Below are positions 8,559 to 11,120 of a stretch of DNA of 36,489 bases, piece after piece. Each line of letters begins with the position of its first letter. Position 1 is the stretch's first letter. Origin of the DNA: Candidatus Daviesbacteria bacterium. GTDB taxonomy: Bacteria > Patescibacteriota > Microgenomatia > Daviesbacterales > UBA10151. Below the pieces are notes generated by a model that did no database searches, was not told where the DNA came from, and saw only the letters and a list, made by a program, of their open reading frames with translations. The stretch is taken from assembly GCA_016183305.1 (NCBI GenBank), contig JACPEW010000007.1, positions 1 to 36,489 on the forward strand, in the 5' to 3' direction. Both the position numbers and the translations under genes were made by a program.

Positions 8559-8942
8559 TTAGAATAACCTTAAAACAGTAATCCCGAGTAAAGAAGACAG
8601 TAAAAATTGTAAAATAAAGAAAGCAAATATTAGGATAACAAAGCCAATTATGGAATGGGTAATCATCTGTTGGGCCCCTGCAACTTCTTCTTTATTTCCT
8701 GCAGCTTTTAAATACTTAAAAGCACCAAGCAAAAAGTAGATAATTACCAGTACTGCAGCTATGGAAAAGAATGGAGTAACTAATTTAGAGGTCCCTTCTC
8801 CTAAAGATGGAATATCCCCAAAACCAAATTTGTCTTCAATCTTCACCTCAGCATAGGCAGGGAACAGGTTGTAGGTTACAGGGTACAGCAGGATTAATAA
8901 GTAAACTGTAAACTGTAAACTGTAAACTGTAAACTTTCTCAA
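8559..8942 (-). CDS. VirB2-like two-helix pilin-type protein
   Basis: Signal peptide; IIYFLLGAFKYLKAAGNKEEVAGAQQMITHSIIGFVILIFAFFILQF. Confidence 0.65.
   Translation of the reverse strand: MRKFTVYSLQFTVYLLILLYPVTYNLFPAYAEVKIEDKFGFGDIPSLGEGTSKLVTPFFSIAAVLVIIYFLLGAFKYLKAAGNKEEVAGAQQMITHSIIGFVILIFAFFILQFLLSSLLGITVLRLF
8901..8935. repeat. Five perfect tandem copies of the heptamer GTAAACT at the start of the pilin gene
   Basis: gtaaact x5 read directly; encodes KFTVYSLQFTVY on the minus strand. Confidence 0.9.
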
Positions 8943-9898
8943 AATGGCACCCCTCCTATATTTGGTTTAAAGATCTCGCTGGCAAATTTAGCAATAGAGT
9001 AAGAAAGAAGGATTATAATGAGTCCTATTATAGCCCAGGTAATCCTGGCTCTGGCTTTTCCCAGCTCTTCTTTTTTACCTCCTGCCATAATATACTGGAA
9101 AGCTCCCCAAACTAAAAAATAAAAAGCTAAAAATATTGCTACATAAAAAGCAATATTTATGAGCCTGGAAACAATATCACTTAATTTTTTAAATTGAGGT
9201 ATTTTACTGTTACTAAAGGCATAAAGGTCTTGAAGCCCAGGGATTGCAGATGTTGGAGCAACAGCAGCAGCTCCTCCTGGAGCAGCAGTTGGAGCAGCAG
9301 TTGGAGCTGCAGGAGCTGGACCAGATTTAGTAGTTACTGAATTAGAAGAAATATTTCTATATCCAGAGCAACCACCGCTATTACAAGCTACAATAATGAT
9401 GTTATATGAAGTTTTTGGGGTAAGCCCTTCAATGGTTGTACTTATATTTCTAGAAGTAGAAGTAGAAGTAGTATGCTCCACCCGTTTAACAGTAGTGTAA
9501 TTTTTTTCAGCAGTAGTTTTATAAGAAACTATGTAATAATCTGCTGTTGATACTTCTTCCCAAGCTATAGGGATGGTTGTTTCGGTTTGCCCATAGTTTT
9601 GTACAACAAGCCAAACAGGTGGCCAGGAAGGAGGTGGAGGATTTGGTTCCCTGGCGAGAATAGGTAAAGAGGAAAATAGCGCTATTATTCCAAATGTCAG
9701 CAAACTGAAAAGTGCTATAAACTTCCGCGGACTAAAATCCGCGGTTTCCCCCTTCAAGTTTACAAGAGCAGCAGAAAATCTGTTCTTTTGTGTACACCGA
9801 TCTGTCTGCGGAAGGCTGTCATCACAAACATTCATCCTTCCGCCAATGGTGGGGAGTTTTCTGCTAGTGATTATAAATTTTAGAAAAAGTTTATTCAT
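8939..9898 (-). CDS. Fibronectin type III domain protein with C-terminal VirB2-like two-helix module
   Basis: FN3-like ...NYGQTETTIPIAWEEVSTADYYIVSYKTT...TIEGLTPKTSYNIIIVACNSGGCSGYRNISSNSVTT; Ala/Pro linker; FLVWGAFQYIMAGGKKEELGKARARITWAIIGLIIILLSYSIAKF. Confidence 0.65.
   Translation of the reverse strand: MNKLFLKFIITSRKLPTIGGRMNVCDDSLPQTDRCTQKNRFSAALVNLKGETADFSPRKFIALFSLLTFGIIALFSSLPILAREPNPPPPSWPPVWLVVQNYGQTETTIPIAWEEVSTADYYIVSYKTTAEKNYTTVKRVEHTTSTSTSRNISTTIEGLTPKTSYNIIIVACNSGGCSGYRNISSNSVTTKSGPAPAAPTAAPTAAPGGAAAVAPTSAIPGLQDLYAFSNSKIPQFKKLSDIVSRLINIAFYVAIFLAFYFLVWGAFQYIMAGGKKEELGKARARITWAIIGLIIILLSYSIAKFASEIFKPNIGGVPF
9725..9880. mobile_element. MITE-like or REP-like 156-bp in-frame insertion in the signal-peptide region
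   Basis: Flanked by tataaactt (9716-9724) and tataaattt (9872-9880); contains CCGCGGA-N6-TCCGCGG, GCGGAAGG...CCTTCCGC and AGCAGAAAA...TTTTCTGCT inverted repeats. Confidence 0.5.
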
Positions 9899-9899
9899 T

Positions 9900-11120
9900 T
9901 TAAGGTCCAAATCCTGGGATTGCTAAAATACCAAACCCAATAATCTGTAAAAATAGGATAGAAAATATTATAAACAATAATCCAATTACAGCGCTGGTTA
10001 ACCTTTCCCTGCCTGCATTTAGGGTTTCCGGGTTACCCTGGGAGGTTAACATCTGAAATGCTCCCAAAAGCATCATCAAAAATGCCAACCCCCCTCCTAT
10101 TCCTATTATAAACTTCATAAGGTCTTTAACAAATTCAGCAGGGTTGGTATGGATACAGCCAATAGCAGTAGCAATTGCTGGGTTATTAGGATCAAAGTTG
10201 AGATCTTTGGGATTATTGCACCCTGAAACTAGTTTGCCTCCTCCGCTACTACACTTTGGATCATCTTTTGCACAGGCAGTGCTTGAGCCGGTTGTGCCAG
10301 GAGTACCGGGTTGGGTAATACTTCCTGGGCTGCCACTTGAGGCTACATTCATATTATACTTACAATTCGTGACGAATTCCGATATGTTAGGCGTGATGGC
10401 TCCTACGGGGGATTGTGTTTTATATAATGTAATAGTGTAATTTCCTGGATTAAGCTTTCCAGTCGGCCCCAATGGCGTAGATTTAAAATTACCTGTTGGA
10501 TCAACTGTTATAACAACATCAAGCTTGCTTGGACCTTCAATTTTTAATTTATAACCTTGATTTATGAGAATGGTTGATTGAGGTGGTGGTTGAATATAAC
10601 CTGTAACCTCAATTTTATCTGTTTCATTAGGTGTCAATGTGCTGAAATTAATTACACAAGCTGTTATTCCTCCAGACTCATCTTTTTTTATTGTATACTT
10701 GCCTTTGCAATAATTACCCGGTGAACCTTTTCTTTCCAAATAAAATGTATGGTCTCCAGGTTCAAAAAGACTGCCACCATCATAATATATGCCCGGAAAC
10801 ACAGGACCATCTGTTAATGTCTCATCCACTAATGTCCCATCCACTGGTCTGGAAGTTAGATTATCTCTTTCTATGCTTCCTATACCTCCTACCTTACCAC
10901 TAGGAAAGACTAATTTATAAGTACTTTTTGTATCTTTCGGAATAATTTTAAACTGCACCCAACCAGGGCTAGAGCTTGAGATGGGAGCGACATTTTGAAC
11001 CAAGGCTGGAGGAACTTGTTCGATAGGTAGGCAGTTGCCTGCATCTGCAGATACACGTTGCAGAAAAAGTTCTGGCTGGATTAATAAAACAATGAGTAAA
11101 AAAAAGGCCTTTTTGGACAT
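9900..11120 (-). CDS. Secreted beta-rich ectodomain protein with C-terminal VirB2-like two-helix module
   Basis: 406 aa; signal peptide; C-terminal LMMLLGAFQMLTSQGNPETLNAGRERLTSAVIGLLFIIFSILFLQIIGF. Confidence 0.6.
   Translation of the reverse strand: MSKKAFFLLIVLLIQPELFLQRVSADAGNCLPIEQVPPALVQNVAPISSSSPGWVQFKIIPKDTKSTYKLVFPSGKVGGIGSIERDNLTSRPVDGTLVDETLTDGPVFPGIYYDGGSLFEPGDHTFYLERKGSPGNYCKGKYTIKKDESGGITACVINFSTLTPNETDKIEVTGYIQPPPQSTILINQGYKLKIEGPSKLDVVITVDPTGNFKSTPLGPTGKLNPGNYTITLYKTQSPVGAITPNISEFVTNCKYNMNVASSGSPGSITQPGTPGTTGSSTACAKDDPKCSSGGGKLVSGCNNPKDLNFDPNNPAIATAIGCIHTNPAEFVKDLMKFIIGIGGGLAFLMMLLGAFQMLTSQGNPETLNAGRERLTSAVIGLLFIIFSILFLQIIGFGILAIPGFGP

Follow-up and report, generated by a model that had tools for sequence, protein, structure and literature searches.

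The minus strand of the window, as we call the whole 36,489-nucleotide stretch of Candidatus Daviesbacteria DNA analysed here, carries a 156-bp mobile element at positions 9717–9872. The element belongs to a family of miniature single-strand transposons that spans a class of Patescibacteria with tiny genomes. The family very probably consists of transposase-less derivatives of an IS200/IS605-type insertion sequence, that is, MITEs resembling palindrome-associated transposable elements (PATEs), one of which has inserted in frame in a gene for an FN3/T4SS-pilin protein. The window thus offers an example of an element that lengthens the N-terminus of a secreted protein while the frame stays open.

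A repeat search of the region with default settings finds no repeats. Same-genome copies match the insertion at E values down to 5e-17, and a covariance model built from 27 copies, the window copy among them, scores it at 127 bits (E 4.5e-22), indicating that the insertion is real. In the own genome, a DNA search queried with a more typical copy, followed by the covariance model, gives at least seven full matches; a further right end, at C26:293, is truncated. Copies are found in 18 of 56 genomes by DNA search alone and, by covariance model, in 52 of the 374 sampled genomes of the class, among them Ca. Daviesbacteria, Levybacteria, and other Microgenomates; the per-genome copy counts from the model are lower bounds, as no more than seven candidates were scored in each genome. 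Public records with a strict right-end pattern come nearly all from Candidatus Daviesbacteria, Levybacteria, and Microgenomates, and the pattern is absent from viral contigs. The copies are about 110–210 bp long and contain no transposase gene. The first-pass annotation had taken the insertion for a non-autonomous mobile element, which is borne out by this recurrence in the own genome and across the class and by an exact empty site for another family copy, described below.

The copies lie between unrelated genes at many loci, in either orientation. Most are intergenic, and about seven or eight of 71, window included, interrupt a gene. The frame runs on through the element in three of the 71 (window copy L001, L126, and L256), and some other gene-splitting copies introduce stops. 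The window copy and L126 agree in orientation and phase, and their encoded peptides are similar, both with FSPRKF at the end. Several copies abut a start codon (e.g. L019 and L036), because the TTTAT of the element makes ATG when it precedes G. The open frame, with a start codon that lies close to the preceding stop, would also suit a reading in which the 52 added residues simply belong to the protein as a conserved segment. However, the same DNA stands between unrelated genes elsewhere, in both orientations, and the pilin orthologues do not have the segment; the dispersed copies refute this reading, to which we give practically no weight.

The strings on which the first-pass annotation relied are all present, with tataaactt at 9716–9724, tataaattt at 9872–9880, and CCGCGGACTAAAATCCGCGG starting at 9725. 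The annotation placed the insert at 9725–9880. The length of 156 bp is right, but the register is shifted by 8, since the near-repeat makes the ends ambiguous and the other copies, together with a gap-free empty site in a VIT1 gene, place the element at 9717–9872, with the left end at 9872 and the right end at 9717 on the minus strand. On the element strand the order is TTAT/AATCAC-TAGCAGAAAA-(left hairpin)-GATGAATGC-GTGATTACA-CTTCCGCGG-...-GGTTTTCTGC-...-TGTAAACTT-...-AGAAAACCGCGGAC-loop-GTCCGCGGAAGTTTAT/, where slashes mark the boundaries. The retained target TTAT, the left cleavage site, lies in the flank (9873–9876, minus strand). The equivalent place among 71 copies holds TTAT in 58, CTAT in 8, TAAT in 2, TCAT in 2, and TTAC in 1. 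The right end TTTAT, the right cleavage site (9717–9721, minus strand), is encoded by the element and constant in the aligned copies, with L009 of the own genome, whose right end is an atypical GACTGT, left out. A target duplication is rejected, because the left site varies among copies while the right TTTAT stays unchanged. The 9-bp flanking near-repeat is therefore present as described, but it is the target TTAT plus the element's own TTTAT end.

Genes split by other copies support these boundaries. In genome G024, a 136-bp copy splits a VIT1 gene, and the joined flanks align without a gap across the junction with two orthologues (55% over 224 and 53% over 217 residues) and match Pfam VIT1 over its full length. 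In a methyltransferase gene split by a 152-bp copy, the joined form retains a continuous Methyltransf_11 match. The joined frame is also natural in a PMT-like glycosyltransferase (L126), in a quinone-oxidoreductase-like protein (L256), and in a four-helix-bundle-like protein (L276), the latter two assigned by reading the sequence.

On the minus strand, the host ORF spans 8939–9910. The upstream ORF stops at 9900 and the ATG at 9898 follows directly, which favors a start at 9898. By Pfam matches and open frame, the gene (8939–9898, minus strand) encodes 319 residues with a signal core, an fn3 domain, and a T4SS_pilin domain. The element follows codon 8, with TTAT at codons 8–9, and contributes 52 codons; joining the flanks gives MNKLFLKFIALFSLLTFGIIALFSSLPILA. 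Since the element is 156 bp long and free of stops in the phase in which it landed, 52 extra residues precede the signal core. The peak of the hydrophobic core moves from residue 8–9 without the insert to residue 60–61 with it, and the core itself is unchanged, as the first-pass annotation had proposed in describing an insert that keeps the frame and pushes the signal sequence downstream. The empty site of this gene would read MNKLFLKFIALFSLL. A search of the orthologues of relatives finds no empty allele, because these orthologues have no counterpart of the whole signal-peptide and FN3 part. Orthologues within the genus are pilin-only proteins that do not cover the insertion site, and the signal-FN3 part therefore appears, on sequence comparison, to be specific to the window lineage. 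The host gene lies in a run of three consecutive minus-strand ORFs (8559–11120), all with a T4SS_pilin domain at their end; the longer two have, in addition, large N-terminal parts, with fn3 in the host gene, that are absent from the pilin-only relatives.

Near-terminal hairpins occur at both ends of the element, with compensatory changes in 27 copies. The right-end hairpin, CCGCGGATTTTAGTCCGCGG (9725–9744, minus strand), also folds in the window copy. The left-end guide region, GCAGAAAA (approximately 9856–9863, minus strand), adjoins the left hairpin and matches the IS608 code. A core strand, TTTTCTGC (9771–9778, minus strand), is an 'anti-guide' to this region, with which it pairs family-wide with compensatory changes. 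The nested inverted repeats of the first-pass annotation, GCGGAAGG (9808–9815) with CCTTCCGC (9836–9843) and AGCAGAAAA (9770–9778) with TTTTCTGCT (9857–9865), are present in sequence and position, but none of the repeats is a terminal inverted repeat. The right-end hairpin accounts for CCGCGG...CCGCGG, and GCAGAAAA pairs with TTTTCTGC over a long range, whereas GCGGAAGG/CCTTCCGC occurs specifically in the window copy, in which the left hairpin and core region (9808–9843, minus strand) have decayed relative to the typical fold.

The single strand of the window copy folds better than all of 200 dinucleotide shuffles (z = −4.2). Among the full copies of the own genome, the window copy has diverged most, with 72–74% identity to the others compared with 87–94% among typical copies. 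In addition to the decayed left hairpin, its right guide has one change. The window copy is probably an old insertion. Two other copies of the genome, L009 and L010 (G000:C1 and C28), have one additional palindrome in common, CAATTTGTAAAACAAATTG, inserted in the left-hairpin loop, and L035 and L036 (G026 and G014) have an extra hairpin-like insertion of about 27 bases after the TTTTCTTG core strand. Positions that tolerate hairpins seem to be open to palindromic inserts in these elements.

The arrangement of the ends resembles that of IS608, which inserts 3' of TTAC, retains this tetranucleotide in the left flank, and has guides 5' of each hairpin that pair with the cleavage sites (PMC5934647). 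Its two pairs are CL TTAC with GL AAAG and CR TCAA with GR GAAT (PMC5934647). From them we derive a code in which guide position 1 pairs with target position −3, 2 with −4, and 4 with −1. The code predicts AANA for TTAT and AGNA for CTAT. In the window copy, we infer that the guide is AAAA, the last four bases of GCAGAAAA. AANA guides are found on the left in 56 of 59 TTAT copies and on the right in 67 of 73. An AGAA guide occurs only in CTAT copies (3 of 8), and A or G at the guide position is associated with the target (Fisher's exact p 6e-4, a test that ignores kinship). The remaining five CTAT copies depart from the predicted AGNA; four keep A at that position and one is decayed. The code is therefore supported, not proven, by natural variation among the copies, which, with their different targets, provide an independent test of the IS608 code. 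At IS200 TnpA loci of the class, a predicted site lies just downstream of the right hairpin in 13 of the 20 loci in which this hairpin was detected automatically, against about four expected; the expectation is rough (13 positions times 1/64), and at least one of the 13 (L051) used the wrong hairpin. Two loci, L077 and L104, fit the code at the left end too.

By analogy with IS608, a Y1 (HUH) TnpA acting in trans would bind both subterminal hairpins on single-stranded DNA. Next to each hairpin, the guide AAAA would pair with TTAT, in the left flank and at the right end respectively. The strand would be cut, the circle joined, and the element reinserted 3' of TTAT in a new single-stranded target, with no target duplication. 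In the window, such an insertion would have occurred after the TTAT at codons 8–9 of the FN3/T4SS-pilin gene. The repeat family with its fixed ends, the TTAT that is retained, the correspondence of guides and cleavage sites, and the exact empty sites of other copies are observed; that a TnpA mobilises the element, and which TnpA does so, we infer.

An alignment of 74 copies shows three conserved pairings in addition to both hairpins and the TGTAAACTT/AAGTTTAT stem. The first, TAATCAC with GTGATTA, is 93% paired, with double changes at five of seven pairs. The second, between the left guide region GCAGAAAA and the core strand TTTTCTGC, is 90.6% paired and has 15 double-change cells, compared with 2.5 in shuffles. 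The third, between the core strand CTTCCGCGG and the right end, is 94% paired, with 33 of its 36 double-change cells at one pair and mostly reflecting one clade difference. The second and third pairings are absent from the covariance model that aligned the copies. Column shuffles retain the relatedness of the copies and slid controls remove it; all slid versions of the core pairings score far lower. Since TAATCAC/GTGATTA crosses GCAGAAAA/TTTTCTGC, the two form a pseudoknot or alternate. The pairing of CTTCCGCGG with the right end is incompatible with the right hairpin, so these two must alternate.

Covariation in the core suggests that the element is regulated from within. The core might, as a tentative reading that we hold less probable than not, act as a built-in switch in which the left guide is masked by TTTTCTGC while the right hairpin and the cleavage end are contested by CTTCCGCGG, so that the folded single-stranded DNA would gate access to guides and ends for a TnpA supplied in trans. 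If true, the switch could explain why a transposase-less element keeps its structure across a bacterial class. We know of no description of such self-regulation of miniature IS200/IS605 elements at the level of single-stranded DNA.

The long-range covarying pairings, one of them crossing, and the RNA fold of a typical copy (z = −4.9) could alternatively reflect a structured RNA, such as an omega-RNA-like guide RNA, a riboswitch, or a self-removing intron, that spreads with the transposon by chance. However, no Rfam family matches at the element, and the copies stand in either orientation to genes, some of which they split with stops. TnpB (PF07282) has no match in the own genome, a MAG that is about 85% complete, and occurs in only one of 45 family genomes, which argues against a TnpB omega-RNA system and against TnpB as the driver. 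We consider a structured RNA quite improbable.

By the features tested, the family of putative IS200/IS605 derivatives fits PATEs, which were described in Haloquadratum walsbyi and are related to IS605-type transposons (PMC3119063). Like PATEs, its members are short and transposase-free, with IS605-type near-terminal palindromes, a short target oligonucleotide, and no terminal inverted repeats (PMC3119063). They differ in being found in a class of small-genome Patescibacteria, in the target TTAT, and in having inside the element a conserved core, covarying with both the left guide region and the right end, that the PATE description does not mention (PMC3119063). In contrast to IS608, with TTAC and TCAA, the left and right sites are both TTAT, and there is no tnpA or tnpB inside (PMC5934647). 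Rickettsia palindromic elements are likewise repeats of about 150 bp that can sit in frame in a protein gene and add residues (PMC10969869). However, the copies here are mostly intergenic, and the share that reads through in frame, 3 of 71, is too low for identity with them. IStrons are also IS605-linked elements inside genes (PMC4227781); the present element is too short, has no group I intron, and has no Rfam match, and we reject this identity. The open-access papers searched contain no description of such elements in these bacteria, and the family may be new to the literature.

Y1 genes are present in 41 of the 45 family genomes; by length and motif, most are RAYT-like and some are true IS200 TnpA. 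The searches run find only RAYT-like Y1 genes in the copy-rich genomes, so either mobilisation by RAYT or loss of the donor is possible there. These observations would suit a REP/REPIN-like repeat moved by RAYT-type (TnpA_REP) Y1 proteins instead of IS200 TnpA, and REP/REPIN are likewise non-autonomous hairpin repeats tied to relatives of Y1 transposases (PMC8266576 and PMC3116915). However, compared with short REPs, the unit is longer and has a fixed target, distinct left and right ends, and guides, and the RAYT genes are flanked by other hairpins. In a model search of 66 Y1 loci, full-length copies lie near two only (the IS200 locus L047, and L291), and no Y1 gene is flanked on both sides by copies, so we reject identity with REPs. 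We regard movement by RAYT as unlikely.

The IS200 TnpA elements of the class have ends similar to those of the miniature family, in line with the proposed derivation from an IS200/IS605-type element. The model, made from miniature copies only, weakly matches two IS200 elements. In L051 it matches the left end (E 0.09) and the right end (E 0.18), in the correct order, and in L047 the right end (E 0.13), all where IS ends are expected. Two IS200 TnpA protein queries find no autonomous donor with identical ends in the 374 genomes, only related ends. The resident IS200 TnpA L011 is rejected as donor, its ends (ACTCTCTGTGGTCTCTGCCACAGAGT ... CCCTGCGGTCTCTGCCGCAGGG) being different. L011 (G000:C24:4804-6748, about 1300–1945) is an IS200 with its own tnpA, situated where a truncated lon gene ends, close to the end of the contig; lon may have been disrupted, or the assembly may break here. 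The short tnpA pieces of G002 and G169 are not miniature derivatives but result from breaks of the assembly at full IS copies, as their location at contig ends shows. At L106, L107, and L112 (G002) and at L109 and L110 (G169), the contig stops within an IS200 tnpA copy. These IS are therefore multicopy and assembly-breaking, and autonomous copy numbers are underestimated in such MAGs. Genome G085 (0.9 Mb) contains ten IS200 tnpA copies of equal score, a sign of a recent burst.
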